A DNA stretch of 64,000 nt from Streptomyces sp. SLBN-31 (lineage in GTDB: Bacteria; Actinomycetota; Actinomycetes; Streptomycetales; Streptomycetaceae). Below, one piece after another: positions 19,342 through 31,356 of this stretch (its first letter is position 1; each line of letters opens with the position of its first letter). The stretch covers positions 2,108,001 through 2,172,000 of the forward strand of contig NZ_VFNC01000002.1 of assembly GCF_006715395.1 (NCBI RefSeq), given 5' to 3'. The position numbers were made by a program, and so were the translations under genes. The notes beneath the pieces are model-generated. The model was not told where the DNA came from and made no database searches. It was given only the letters and a program-made list of their open reading frames with translations.

Positions 19342-21357
19342 ATGAGCGCGTCGTCCGGCGTCGAGAGCGCGGAACACGGCACACGCGGCCCTGGGGTGCC
19401 GTGGGGAGACGTCGTGCTGTCCGCGATCGCCTCCGTGAGCTGGGCGTTGATCGGGATGGCGGGAACGGCGGCGCTCGGCCTGCATCTGCTGCGGGCGGAT
19501 GCCGCGGGCTCGCTGGGACCGATGACCGCGGCCGTGGTCGCCCTCGGGGCGGGTGGTTCGGTCACTCCGTCCGGCGATGTCTCCGCGTTCGGACTGAAGG
19601 GCGCCGAGGCCCACACGGCCGTCACGATCACGCCACTCGGGGTGAGCCTGGTCGGCGCGCTGCTGCTGTCGTGGTTCTTCCTACGGTCCCTGCGCGCGGC
19701 CAAAGTTGTGGTCGAGCCGGCCGAACTCCTCGCGCGCGCGGGCGCGGTGGTCGTGCTGTTCATGGCGATGCTGGGCGGGCTGGCCTGGGCGGGCCATGAC
19801 GTCATCACCATCGACGGCGGCTCGCTGGGCCTCGACAAGCTGCCCGGCGGATCGGGCGGTGGCGGCGGGATCAGCGTCCCGGGCCTCGGCGACCTCGGGG
19901 ACATCGGCGGGCTGCTCCCGGACAACGTCGGCAACCTCATCAAGGCCAAGGCGGGGGTCGGCTTCTCGGTCGACACCGCGCCCACCCTGCTCGGGGGACT
20001 CGGCTGGGCGGCCGGGGTCCTGCTGATCGCCCTGCTGGCCTCGCGCCGCACTCCCCTGCCGCGGGGCTGGGAAGCGGTGCACCGCGTCGTCCGGCCGGCG
20101 GCCTCGGCGATCGTCACGGTACTGCTGGTGACCGTGGCCGCGGGGCTCGCGGCGGCGGTGTACGCGGCGATCGGCGACGACCATCCCCGGCGGATCTTCG
20201 GCGCGGCGCTGCTCGGCGCCCCGAACGGCACCTGGCTCGGCATCCCGATCGGCCTGTTCGTCCCGTTCGACGGCAAGGCGACGGGCGCGCTGGCCAAGCT
20301 GCTGCCCAACCCCCTGGACGACCTCCTCACCGCGAAGACCGACCAGTCGGTGACGCTGGGCAGACTGGCCGAGCTGGACGGACGGGTGTGGCTCCTCGGC
20401 GTCGCGGCGGCGGTGACGATGCTGCTGGCCGGAGTGCTGACGGCGGTACGGACGCCGGTCGGGGGTGCGGCGGAGCAAGGGGCGGGCGGTCCGGGTGTAC
20501 GGGGTTCCGGTGCCCTCCGGTTCGCGGGGCAGTGCGCTCTACGACTCGGGGTCGTCACGGCGCTGACCCTGCCGTTGCTCGCCTGGCTGACCGAGGTGTC
20601 GGTGGACGCCTCCCTGTCGGTGCTGGGCTTCGACGCGTTCGGCGCCGGGATCAGCCTGCGGGGGAACCTCGGCATGGCCCTGCTGCTCGGCGCGGCGTGG
20701 GGCGCGGCGGCGGGCGCGGTCGGCGCGCTGCTGGCCCGGGCGACCGGAGCGGCGGGACGGGGGGCGGCTCCCCTGGCGCGGGCCTGGGTCACGGGCGGTG
20801 CGCGTCCGCGGTACCCAGCGGAAGCCGGGGTGCGCGCGGGGACGGCGGGGACGCACGAGGGCGGCTCGGGACCGTATGCGGGTGGCCCGGGACCGTATGC
20901 CGGTGACCCGGGACCGCATGCGGGTGGCCCGGGACCGTATGCCGGTGGCCAGGGGCCGTACACGCCCGGCGGGTCGTACCGGGCGCCGAACCCGGCCACC
21001 AATCCGTATCTGCGGGTGCCGGACGAGGCCGGGGAGTCGGAGGACGCGCGGCCGACCGACCGAGCCGGGTCCGGTGGGAACGCGCGACCGCCGGACCGGC
21101 CTGGAGCCGGTGCGTACGCGGAGCCGCCCGACCGGCCCGGACGGGGCGGGGACGCGCGGCCTCCCGACCGGCCCCGGGCCGGTGAGGGCGTGCCGCCGCC
21201 CGGCGCGGGTGACGGCGACGTGTACGGCGCCCCCACGGTGGTGCGGCCGATCGGGAACCCGCCGCCTCGCCGGCAGCCGCCCCGGCCGGGAGGCGACGGT
21301 CCTCCGCCGCCTCCGCCGCCCCCTCCGCCGCCCAGGAGGCCCAAGGGGGGTCGGTGA
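19342..21357 (+). CDS. Large hydrophobic membrane protein (streptophobe-like) with Gly/Pro-rich tail
   Basis: This 671-residue protein has many hydrophobic segments over about 25-480 (for example VVLFMAMLGGLAWAG and ASAIVTVLLVTVAAGLAAAV). A long polar tail follows (about 490-671), rich in Gly, Pro and Arg. The tail holds short tandem units of the type GPYAGGP/GPYAGDP at roughly residues 512-545 and ends in a polyproline run. It resembles the actinomycete streptophobe family, which has no assigned function. It diverges from the FHA-ABC gene. Whether the two work together is unknown. Confidence 0.78.
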   Translation: MSASSGVESAEHGTRGPGVPWGDVVLSAIASVSWALIGMAGTAALGLHLLRADAAGSLGPMTAAVVALGAGGSVTPSGDVSAFGLKGAEAHTAVTITPLGVSLVGALLLSWFFLRSLRAAKVVVEPAELLARAGAVVVLFMAMLGGLAWAGHDVITIDGGSLGLDKLPGGSGGGGGISVPGLGDLGDIGGLLPDNVGNLIKAKAGVGFSVDTAPTLLGGLGWAAGVLLIALLASRRTPLPRGWEAVHRVVRPAASAIVTVLLVTVAAGLAAAVYAAIGDDHPRRIFGAALLGAPNGTWLGIPIGLFVPFDGKATGALAKLLPNPLDDLLTAKTDQSVTLGRLAELDGRVWLLGVAAAVTMLLAGVLTAVRTPVGGAAEQGAGGPGVRGSGALRFAGQCALRLGVVTALTLPLLAWLTEVSVDASLSVLGFDAFGAGISLRGNLGMALLLGAAWGAAAGAVGALLARATGAAGRGAAPLARAWVTGGARPRYPAEAGVRAGTAGTHEGGSGPYAGGPGPYAGDPGPHAGGPGPYAGGQGPYTPGGSYRAPNPATNPYLRVPDEAGESEDARPTDRAGSGGNARPPDRPGAGAYAEPPDRPGRGGDARPPDRPRAGEGVPPPGAGDGDVYGAPTVVRPIGNPPPRRQPPRPGGDGPPPPPPPPPPPRRPKGGR

Positions 21358-28269: not shown

Positions 28270-29793
28270 GTGCCTCATACCATCGACGAAGCCTTCACGG
28301 CACTCCCGCTACGCGCCCTCGCGGACGCCGCGCTCGCACGCGCGCGTGCGCTGGGCGCCGAGCACGCCGACTTCCGCCTCGAACGGGTGCGCAGCGCTTC
28401 CTGGCGCCTGCGGGACGCCAAGCTCGCCGGGTCGTCGGACACCACCGACCTCGGGTACGCGGTGCGCGTCGTGCACGGCGGTACCTGGGGCTTCGCCTCG
28501 GGCGTCGACCTGACCCTGGACGCGGCGGCCAAGGTCGCCTCGCAGGCGGTGGCGATGGCGAAGCTCTCCGCCCAGGTGATCAAGGCGGCCGGCTCGGACG
28601 AGCGCGTGGAGCTCGCCGACGAGCCCGTGCACGCCGACCGGACATGGGTGTCGTCGTACGAGATCGATCCGTTCGGCGTCCCGGACGAGGAGAAGTCGGC
28701 GCTGCTGGCCGACTGGAGCGCACGGCTGCTCGCGGCGAACGGCGTCAACCACGTCGACGCCTCCCTGCTCACCGTGCACGAGAACAAGTTCTACGCCGAC
28801 ACGGCCGGGACCGTGACGACGCAGCAGCGTGTCCGGCTGCACCCGTCGCTGACCGCCGTGTCGGTCGACGAGTCGAGCGGCGAGTTCGACTCGATGCGGA
28901 CCATCGCGCCGCCGGTCGGGCGGGGCTGGGAGTACCTGACCGGCACCGGCTGGGACTGGGAGGGCGAGCTGGAGCAGATCCCCGAGCTGCTCGCCGAGAA
29001 GATGCGGGCGCCGAGCGTCGAGGCGGGCCTGTACGACCTGGTCGTCGACCCGTCCAACCTGTGGCTGACCATCCACGAGTCCATCGGCCACGCCACCGAG
29101 CTGGACCGCGCGCTCGGCTACGAGGCCGCGTACGCCGGCACCTCCTTCGCCACGTTCGACCAGCTCGGCAAGCTCCGCTACGGCTCCGAGCTGATGAACG
29201 TCACCGGCGACCGCACCGCAGAGCACGGCCTCGCGACCGTCGGCTACGACGACGAGGGCGTCGAGGGCCAGTCCTGGGACCTGGTCAAGGACGGCACGCT
29301 CGTCGGTTACCAGCTCGACCGCCGCATCGCGAAGCTGACCGGCTTCGAGCGCTCCAACGGCTGCGCCTTCGCCGACTCCCCCGGCCACGTGCCCGTGCAG
29401 CGCATGGCCAACGTCTCGCTCCGGCCGGACCCGGCCGGAATGTCGACGGAGGACCTGATCGGCGGGGTCGACCGCGGGATCTACGTCGTCGGGGACCGGT
29501 CGTGGTCCATCGACATGCAGCGCTACAACTTCCAGTTCACCGGCCAGCGATTCTTCCGGATCGAGAACGGGCGGATCACCGGGCAGCTGCGGGACGTCGC
29601 CTACCAGGCGACGACGACGGACTTCTGGGGCTCGATGGCCGCGGTGGGCGGCCCGCAGACCTACGTCCTGGGCGGCGCCTTCAACTGCGGCAAGGCCCAG
29701 CCGGGCCAGGTCGCCGCCGTGTCCCACGGCTGCCCCTCGGCGCTCTTCCGCGGCGTCAACATCCTCAACACCACGCAGGAGGCCGGTCGATGA
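28270..29793 (+). CDS. tldD: TldD metalloprotease subunit
   Basis: This 507-residue protein is the catalytic half of the TldD/TldE (PmbA) heterodimer, which degrades unfolded peptides and trims some modified-peptide precursors. The metal motif HESIGH (His269, Glu270, His274) is the HExxxH signature of the family, and the SHGCPS segment near the C-terminus is also conserved. The GTG at 28270 follows AGGAAGAG. Its stop overlaps an ATG (ATGA, 29790-29793). The next 172 bp are an 86-bp tandem repeat that separates it from the real pmbA start, an unusual arrangement described separately. Confidence 0.96.
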   Translation: MPHTIDEAFTALPLRALADAALARARALGAEHADFRLERVRSASWRLRDAKLAGSSDTTDLGYAVRVVHGGTWGFASGVDLTLDAAAKVASQAVAMAKLSAQVIKAAGSDERVELADEPVHADRTWVSSYEIDPFGVPDEEKSALLADWSARLLAANGVNHVDASLLTVHENKFYADTAGTVTTQQRVRLHPSLTAVSVDESSGEFDSMRTIAPPVGRGWEYLTGTGWDWEGELEQIPELLAEKMRAPSVEAGLYDLVVDPSNLWLTIHESIGHATELDRALGYEAAYAGTSFATFDQLGKLRYGSELMNVTGDRTAEHGLATVGYDDEGVEGQSWDLVKDGTLVGYQLDRRIAKLTGFERSNGCAFADSPGHVPVQRMANVSLRPDPAGMSTEDLIGGVDRGIYVVGDRSWSIDMQRYNFQFTGQRFFRIENGRITGQLRDVAYQATTTDFWGSMAAVGGPQTYVLGGAFNCGKAQPGQVAAVSHGCPSALFRGVNILNTTQEAGR

Positions 29794-29879
29794 GCGCCCG
29801 TGCAGGTCTCGGCTGGGGGTCCGGGGGTTATCCCCCGGAAAAGCACAGTCTCAACACCACGCAGGAGGCCGGTCGATGA
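29790..29879 (+). CDS. 29-codon ORF created by repeat copy 1
   Basis: This ORF starts at the ATG that overlaps the tldD stop and ends in the matching ATGA of copy 2. It has its own GGAGG ribosome site from the repeat. The product would be MSARAGLGWGSGGYPPEKHS plus nine residues identical to the TldD C-terminus (LNTTQEAGR). It probably has no function of its own and may only pass ribosomes on to pmbA (inference). Confidence 0.4.
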   Translation: MSARAGLGWGSGGYPPEKHSLNTTQEAGR

Positions 29880-29965
29880 GCGCCCGTGCAGGTCTCGGCT
29901 GGGGGTCCGGGGGTTATCCCCCGGAAAAGCACAGTCTCAACACCACGCAGGAGGCCGGTCGATGA
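29876..29965 (+). CDS. 29-codon ORF created by repeat copy 2
   Basis: It encodes exactly the same 29 residues as the ORF from copy 1, in a different frame relative to tldD. It begins in the ATGA overlap at 29876 and ends in the ATGA overlap with pmbA at 29962. With copy 1 it forms a chain of four overlapping stop/start pairs from tldD to pmbA. A coupling or spacer role is conjecture. Confidence 0.4.
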   Translation: MSARAGLGWGSGGYPPEKHSLNTTQEAGR

Positions 29966-31356
29966 GCGCCCGCAGCAACAAGCCGCACGAGATCGTCGAG
30001 CGGGCGCTGGAGCTGTCCACCGCCGACGGCTGTGTCGTCATCGCCGACGAGCAGTCCACCGCGAACCTGCGCTGGGCGGGCAACGCCCTCACCACGAACG
30101 GTGTCACCCGGGGCCGTACGCTCACGGTGATCGCGTCCGTCGACGGCAAGGAGGGCACGGCCTCCGGTGTCGTCTCGCGCTCGGCCGTCACCGTGGCCGA
30201 GCTGGAGCCCCTGGTGCGGGCCGCGGAGGCCGCGGCGCGGGCCGCCGGACCCGCCGAGGACGCGCAGCCGCTGGTCACGAACGTACCGGCCTCCCCCGAC
30301 TTCACGGACGCGCCCGCTGAGACCGGCTCCGCCGTGTTCGCCGACTTCGCGCCGGCGCTGGGCGAGGCTTTCGCACGCGCGCGTGCCGGCGGCCGCGAAC
30401 TGTACGGCTTCGCCAACCACGAACTCGTCTCGAGCTACGTGGGTACGTCGACGGGGCTGCGCCTGCGTCACGACCAGCCCAACGGCACGCTGGAGATCAA
30501 CGCCAAGTCGCCCGACCGCAAGCGCTCGGCGTGGGCCGGACGCTCCACGCGGGACTTCAAGGACGTCGACCCGGCGGCCCTGGACGCCGAGCTCGCCGTA
30601 CGCCTCGGCTGGGCCGAGCGGCGGATCGAGCTGCCCGCCGGACGGTACGAGACGCTGCTGCCGCCGACCGCGGTGGCGGATCTGCTGATCTACCAGCTGT
30701 GGTCGGCGTCGGGGCGGGACGCGGTCGAGGGGCGCACGGTGTTCTCCAAGCCCGGCGGCGGCACCCGCGTGGGCGACCGGCTCACCGAGCTGCCGCTGAC
30801 CCTGCGCAGCGACCCGAACGAACCCGGACTGGAGTCGGCGCCCTTCGTGATCGCCCACTCCTCCGGGGGTGATCAGTCGGTGTTCGACAACGGTCTGCCG
30901 CTCGCGGCCACCGAGTGGGTGCGCGAGGGGGTGCTGACGAACCTCGCCACCACCCGGCACAGCGCCGGTCTGACCGGCCTGCCGGTGGCCCCGGCGATCG
31001 ACAACCTGATCCTGACCGGCGGCGAGGACCGCTCCCTGGAGGAGATGGTCGCGAGCACCGAACGCGGGCTGCTGCTGACCTGCCTGTGGTACATCCGCGA
31101 GGTCGACCCGGCCACGCTGCTGCTGACCGGCCTGACCAGGGACGGCGTCTATCTCGTGGAGAACGGCGAGGTGACCGGCGAGGTGAACAACTTCCGGTTC
31201 AACGAGTCGCCGGTGGACCTGCTGGGCCGGGCCACCGAGGCCGGGCGTACCGAAAAGACGCTGCCCAGGGAGTGGAGCGACTGGTTCACTAGGACCGCGA
31301 TGCCGGCCCTGCGGGTGCCCGACTTCAACATGAGCTCTGTCAGTCAGGGCGTATAA
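29962..31356 (+). CDS. pmbA: PmbA/TldE metalloprotease subunit
   Basis: This 464-residue protein is the partner subunit of TldD. It shares the fold but lacks the HExxxH motif, as expected for TldE. The C-terminal part (LTGLTRDGVYLVENGEVTGE and NNFRFNESPVDLLG) is typical. The ATG at 29962 in repeat copy 3 gives MSARSNKPHEIVERALEL, a normal start. An open frame from 29800 would add 54 repeat-derived residues and is not credible. Translation is probably coupled through the upstream overlaps. Confidence 0.95.
   Translation: MSARSNKPHEIVERALELSTADGCVVIADEQSTANLRWAGNALTTNGVTRGRTLTVIASVDGKEGTASGVVSRSAVTVAELEPLVRAAEAAARAAGPAEDAQPLVTNVPASPDFTDAPAETGSAVFADFAPALGEAFARARAGGRELYGFANHELVSSYVGTSTGLRLRHDQPNGTLEINAKSPDRKRSAWAGRSTRDFKDVDPAALDAELAVRLGWAERRIELPAGRYETLLPPTAVADLLIYQLWSASGRDAVEGRTVFSKPGGGTRVGDRLTELPLTLRSDPNEPGLESAPFVIAHSSGGDQSVFDNGLPLAATEWVREGVLTNLATTRHSAGLTGLPVAPAIDNLILTGGEDRSLEEMVASTERGLLLTCLWYIREVDPATLLLTGLTRDGVYLVENGEVTGEVNNFRFNESPVDLLGRATEAGRTEKTLPREWSDWFTRTAMPALRVPDFNMSSVSQGV

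Follow-up and report, generated by a model that had tools for sequence, protein, structure and literature searches.

The tldD-pmbA junction of Streptomyces sp. SLBN-31 lies within a stretch of 64,000 nt on contig NZ_VFNC01000002.1 (positions 2,108,001 to 2,172,000 of the forward strand), which is hereafter termed the window and to which all coordinates refer. Between the two genes are found two small ORFs and two copies of an inserted element, interleaved with copies of the tldD gene end. The features, all on the forward strand, are as follows, with the boundaries of the inserted element drawn from direct repeats and copy comparisons:

28270..29793, + strand: tldD, the upstream gene, encoding Pfam PmbA_TldD domains; its 3' end is the duplicated segment, and its GTG start codon is taken from the translation
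29764..29800, + strand: gene-end copy 1, containing the end of tldD, GGAGG at 29778-29782 and ATGA
29790..29879, + strand: small ORF 1, 29 codons, MSARAGLGWGSGGYPPEKHSLNTTQEAGR
29794..29848, + strand: inserted element copy 1, from the family alignment and a covariance-model match, consisting of a variable left part (29794-29814), the palindrome GGGGGTCCGGGGGTTATCCCCCGG (29815-29838) and the tail AAAAGCACAG (29839-29848)
29850..29886, + strand: gene-end copy 2, with GGAGG at 29864-29868 and ATGA
29876..29965, + strand: small ORF 2, whose peptide is identical to that of small ORF 1
29880..29934, + strand: inserted element copy 2, a covariance-model match
29936..29972, + strand: gene-end copy 3, with GGAGG at 29950-29954, joined to the native pmbA start
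29962..31356, + strand: pmbA (tldE), 464 codons, encoding Pfam PmbA/TldD domains

TRF analysis of 29764-29972 yields a period of 86 with 2.4 copies, 100% matches and a score of 418, and the copies stand in register at 29759, 29845 and 29931, in agreement with the initial annotation, which had described an 86-bp repeat over this junction. Its account of tldD, two identical 29-codon ORFs and pmbA as one overlapping series also holds: the TldD C-terminus (...LNTTQEAGR*) is followed by two ATG-initiated 29-codon ORFs and then by PmbA, each start codon sits upon the preceding stop in an ATGA overlap (29790, 29876 and 29962), and GGAGG is located upstream of all three starts. The same annotation divided the unit into a 49-bp hairpin element and a 37-bp part carrying the tldD end, GGAGG and ATGA. 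The hairpin element stands, and its extent is better drawn at 55 bp (29794-29848): 21 nt of variable left part, a palindrome of 24 nt and a tail of 10 nt that closes with CACAG; the remaining 31 bp are the duplicated gene end. The insert and pmbA share their first bases after ATGA, which carries the identity on to 37 bp. The contents assigned to the 37-bp part are all present, and it is in essence a duplicated host gene end, which differs from locus to locus. To restore the overlap, the ATGA-to-ATGA distance must be 2 mod 3, and the 86-bp unit obeys this rule.

Rfam yielded no match in this stretch of the window (E up to 1) or in eight loci (at gathering scores), and no fold of unusual stability was apparent from RNA folding (z-scores of -0.70 and -0.60). 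Two further candidates were rejected. A conserved bioactive peptide is not indicated, as codons 2-8 of the small ORF exhibit no third-position excess (entropy 1.02, 1.20, 0.89) and the peptide has no Pfam match. A decayed pmbA start as the source of the part between ATGA and the palindrome likewise found little support: this part is identical to its own pmbA start at 7.5/20 positions vs 6.9 to those of others (a similarity reached in 12 of 10000 permutations), and left parts are alike at 11.4/20 positions between genomes.

Extra units at this junction are not confined to SLBN-31. In a scan of 392 Streptomyces genomes for the TldD C-terminal codon pattern, with one mismatch allowed and the matches tallied by hand, 39 genomes contained no match, 285 contained one, 59 two and 9 three. 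In one of the 59 two-match genomes (G217), the matches reside on different contigs, which leaves 67 genomes with extra tandem units, one in at least 58 and two in 9; these counts are lower bounds, since two genomes without a pattern match (G060 and G241) and one with a single match (G274) also carry a unit. The junction was further found on 96 named contigs, all from Streptomyces, one of which (L047) contains three extra units. The copy number at the junction of related Streptomyces thus ranges over 0, 1, 2 and 3 extra units, which is the variation that had been proposed as a check. With at least 67/392 public genomes carrying one or two extra tandem units at this position, an assembly error at the SLBN-31 junction is unlikely. 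On a tree of 88 tldD-pmbA sequences, at least 20 changes are needed to account for copy number, at least 15 to account for presence and at least 8 to reach the two-unit state, although the 22 rows with empty tldD sites were chosen from near matches, so the sample is uneven and gains are indistinguishable from losses.

Throughout these genomes, the stop/start chain is almost invariably retained. Among the 70 junctions read (67 genomes from the scan and three found otherwise), 69 have, in sequence, an unbroken ORF chain leading from tldD into pmbA; the sole break (L043) occurs in an assembly of 55% completeness whose pmbA carries a frameshift as well. Automatic reading of 75 units from 66 genomes gave small ORFs of 27 to 41 codons and ATGA-to-ATGA distances of 80 to 122 (the ORF length minus 4), with GGAGG present in 74/75. 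The nine length classes beyond the usual one all keep the frame, for which the chance under random indels is about 5e-5, leaving out L043 (distance 85, out of frame). Of the named tldD loci, 91 of the 93 that are readable chain to the pmbA start (three of the 96 lack the motif), bearing in mind that pmbA runs off the fetched piece in 11 of the 91 and that many named loci are genomes already counted. The two that do not chain are L121, whose small ORF forms an in-frame fusion with pmbA, and L108, which is again the assembly of L043. Units in L289, L301 and L309 have a degraded palindrome yet remain part of an unbroken ORF chain. Outside of tldD, 11/11 rows at coupled genes chain to the downstream gene; these represent three gene pairs (sugar permease, ABC ATPase and FecCD permease) in several species, with irregular units in L251 and L178. 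As a control, 24 rows having no overlapping coding neighbor distribute 4, 6 and 14 among the unit-length classes 0, 1 and 2 mod 3. Class 2 is in excess here too, and consequently the frame rule carries weight chiefly where no row departs from it. That such units can multiply inside an operon without breaking the stop/start chain is borne out by the tldD junctions and by the coupled genes elsewhere, and from the arrangement of the reading frames translation can probably pass from tldD to pmbA through the small ORFs; the tuning of the TldD:PmbA ratio suggested by the initial annotation is a hypothesis. Two of these junctions have unusual forms. The locus L133 (NZ_JFCB01000026.1) contains three units, the middle one having shortened G runs and a shifted frame, and its chain still gets to pmbA via a 57-codon ORF. 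In L121 (NZ_LIXJ01000019.1), the fusion creates a single ORF of 493 codons.

The 86-bp unit is best seen as one site of a palindromic element, non-coding and non-autonomous, that is dispersed among Streptomyces genomes. Members of the family share a core and right end of the form GGGGGTCCGGGGG-loop-CCCCCGG, followed by about 10 nt ending in CACAG. The palindrome pattern was detected in 25/37 genomes of the genus and 0/24 others, and a reversed-pattern control gave 0. A covariance model built from 37 copies matches 52/61 genus genomes, with up to 20 matches per genome, compared with weak matches in 4/39 others; across the order, 83/119 genomes match, all of them in one of five genera. In the SLBN-31 genome the model finds 8 matches, two of which are the tldD-pmbA units, and the hairpin is accordingly an interspersed palindromic element, as had been suspected from the window alone. 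At tldD the palindrome is perfect in 58/75 units and exhibits a mean pairwise identity of 0.918 vs 0.568 for the adjoining flank (47 genomes), a comparison that for the non-tldD groups is biased, since these were found by that same palindrome. Searches by sequence letters or by topic returned no description of the element in the open-licence literature searched, and the phage and plasmid collections contained no strong match to it. Several copies depart from the usual arrangement. Four tandem 80-bp units are located 3' of an ectoine hydroxylase gene (L143, in G009), whereas three copies at G467:C112:3327-4052 are spaced by 342 bp, longer than other arrays. Four loci (L171, L187, L196 and L272, with L187 and L272 being one locus) share 58-65 nt directly 5' of the palindrome and have no near direct repeats, which is perhaps a longer form of the element.

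Another key feature of the family is a direct repeat surrounding many of its copies. A repeat scoring at least 20 was found around 45/91 examined copies vs 0/91 in a shuffled control (maximum score 12), these 91 rows including tandem copies and one locus recurring in several species. In 39/45 the repeat starts 0-3 nt after the CAG of the tail, and its length is about 31-118 bp. The repeat contains the stop codon of a sense ORF in 32 rows and there copies the upstream gene end, usually beginning at a TTC codon and reaching roughly as far as the stop. Among the upstream genes tested are those for a sugar permease, ectoine hydroxylase, ABC ATPase, FecCD permease, HemQ, DnaJ and Der, as well as an acyl-CoA thioesterase, acyl-CoA ligase, MurA, a small multidrug-resistance family protein and proline dehydrogenase; by gene name, the copied ends include murA, der, dnaJ, hemQ and thpD. 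At three loci (L147, L188 and L274) the repeated gene is tRNA-Lys(CTT), with the repeat extending beyond the tRNA in L147 and L188 and ending with it in L274. The architecture is found also at genes having no coupled neighbor and at a tRNA. In two antisense cases (L190 and L264), it is the start codon that lies inside the repeat, as read by eye. The repeat begins at the third base of a codon in 29/32 coding rows and at TT^C in 23/32. When tallied by distinct coding locus, 10/14 begin at TTC and the rest at ATC or TAC (two read by eye), which corresponds to P of about 4e-12 against a TTC frequency of 3.7% of codons. Empty sites are seen at tldD (the 22 empty rows of the tree) and at der, where all 30 other genomes compared (12 from the order, 18 from the genus) read straight across the insertion point and the carrier's repeat matches at 118/118 positions. 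In G018, a palindrome is located just 3' of der with no second gene end (L142), which implies that the der insertion may be older than it appears. At score 20 no repeat was detected for 46/91 copies, three of which score 16-19, and at 20 repeat-less loci none adjoining the tail was found within about 9-12 kb upstream, there being a few weak matches elsewhere. Therefore, the duplication is either not universal or it decays.

In 23/26 single-insert rows, agreement over the 24 bases that follow the stop codon does not exceed 10, the exceptions being L178 (24), L224 (14) and L179 (13); in L153 the first four agree, and six tandem rows agree past the stop by construction. The repeat identity thus often ends at the stop codon, which is not predicted by a target duplication of random length. 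At non-tldD loci, comparison of copy with copy revealed 38 synonymous and 23 non-synonymous differences, a tally that includes tandem rows and repeated loci and leaves out L152, L158, L165, L229, L240, L269 and L279 as well as rows over 30% different. Of the non-synonymous differences, 22 of 23 fall in two proline-dehydrogenase rows, outside of which there are 30 synonymous differences and 1 non-synonymous; the tldD copies contain 60 and 18, respectively. The second copy shows protein-level constraint even at loci where its translation is not apparent, which requires either exchange between the copies or another role. The proline-dehydrogenase copies have decayed, indicating that the second copy is not always kept. 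Within genomes, tldD gene ends differ by 0.91 per 28 nt vs 3.24 between genomes, a value as low as which was reached in 0 of 10000 permutations, in a test that ignores relatedness. From these patterns we infer that repeated gene ends exchange sequence, with each copy at times serving as the functional end.

Based upon these features, the reading we consider reasonably probable is that of a dispersed element inserted with target duplication, creating a relay ORF and followed by exchange between the repeated gene ends. The element would enter by an insertion that duplicates its target from a TTC codon (less often ATC or TAC) past the gene end, with the upstream copy keeping the host gene whole. 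Where the next gene starts in an ATGA or GTGA overlap, the downstream copy would restore both the Shine-Dalgarno sequence and the start codon, and the insert would then be read as a short relay ORF handing ribosomes on, as the sequence suggests. Exchange between gene ends would subsequently gain, lose and homogenize units, consistent with the tree and the concerted evolution of the copies, and the SLBN-31 window would represent the two-unit state. The presence of Y1 transposase does not follow that of the family, nor does that of RVT_1 reverse transcriptase, and a longer autonomous copy was not found at the 20 repeat-less loci. As a tentative extension that we hold to be possible, if on balance doubtful, the family may be a still active mobile or recombining module that inserts close to gene ends, at the third base of a TTC codon, and copies the remainder of the gene, such that insertions would be silent for the gene and its coupled neighbor, using an enzyme of a kind not yet known.

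The main rival to exchange between gene ends is a cassette resembling an attachment site, in which the mobile unit would consist of gene end, left part, palindrome and tail, and its own functional gene end would replace the native one, much as some phages integrate at gene 3' ends and replace the native end by their own copy. Such a cassette would account for repeat identity that runs to the stop codon or barely beyond it (to the start codon in the antisense L190 and L264), and the overwhelmingly synonymous differences outside the proline-dehydrogenase rows look as if each copy had once been functional. Nevertheless, the same palindrome and tail occur at many different gene ends, which leaves no single att core, and the search for distant repeats at the 20 loci revealed no longer version; we therefore regard the cassette as unlikely. 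An ordinary VNTR is quite improbable, in which a functional mRNA hairpin after tldD would be selected to set the TldD:PmbA ratio. The conservation of the tldD palindrome relative to its flank would fit such a role, but most sampled Streptomyces are without an extra unit (285/392 have one gene end only), the same element is present at unrelated genes, and in L289, L301 and L309 the ORF chain has outlasted an eroded palindrome.

A retroposon, whose RNA with a 3' hairpin would be copied into a TT^C nick by a reverse transcriptase through target priming, leaving variable target duplications, could explain why the right end is constant, why the left part varies and why the repeats measure about 31-118 bp. 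However, RVT_1 was not found in 6/12 genomes with at least 8 copies, SLBN-31 included, and we consider this origin very unlikely. Least credible of all, to the point of being close to dismissal, is a REP-like element moved by a Y1 (RAYT) transposase: the family does consist of short interspersed palindromes with several copies per genome, but Y1_Tnp was not found in 8/12 genus genomes with at least 8 copies, including one with 19, and we know of no REP insertion that produces long direct repeats.

Mycobacterial MIRUs, reportedly the subject of a 1997 paper by Supply et al., are the closest known kind; judged by published descriptions of MIRUs, the Streptomyces family seems to act alike at coupled genes but to insert differently, and it is not classed here as a MIRU. 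MIRUs are described as short interspersed, tandemly variable repeats of 40-100 bp having an ORF coupled by -4 nt to the next gene and presumed to insert with little effect on that gene (PMC12548453, PMC2734929), and a review portrays them as apparently mobile, inserting at start codons with -4 nt coupling (PMC12548453). The Streptomyces family is likewise a short interspersed repeat (52/61 genus genomes) with a variable tandem number (0-3 extra tldD units), and its ORF also joins the next gene by a 4-nt overlap (69/70 and 11/11), with L121 fusing instead. Unlike MIRUs, for which insertion is at start codons (NTGA sites), the Streptomyces tail joins TT^C (AT^C, TA^C) inside the upstream gene, the insert adjoins a copy of the upstream gene end, and many loci are without a coupled neighbor, one being a tRNA. 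There is a partial likeness in that the left end of the Streptomyces element often abuts the stop codon. REP/BIME sequences with RAYT are similarly short, GC-rich, interspersed palindromes near gene ends, from which the Streptomyces element differs by its host gene-end direct repeats and in-frame relay ORFs as well as by the eight high-copy carriers in which Y1 transposase was not found. Phage and ICE attachment sites occur at gene or tRNA 3' ends, and in both cases a gene-end direct repeat keeps the host gene whole while the copies differ synonymously. In contrast to these integrated elements, only a short insert lies between the Streptomyces gene-end repeats, about 40-60 bp or slightly more and non-coding bar the relay ORF, and its core is the same at many different genes.

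These features suggest how a repeat can persist inside an operon or where an important gene ends (murA, der, dnaJ and tldD-pmbA) while leaving the genes unbroken, as the duplicated gene end would preserve both the gene and a putative translational relay. The family also supplies natural variants with 0 to 3 relay ORFs, on which translational coupling could be measured, and offers a mobilizer to be discovered. Elsewhere in the window, 20859-20960 and 21040-21202 contain tandem repeats of 21 bp and 36/72 bp located in long overlapping ORFs on both strands.
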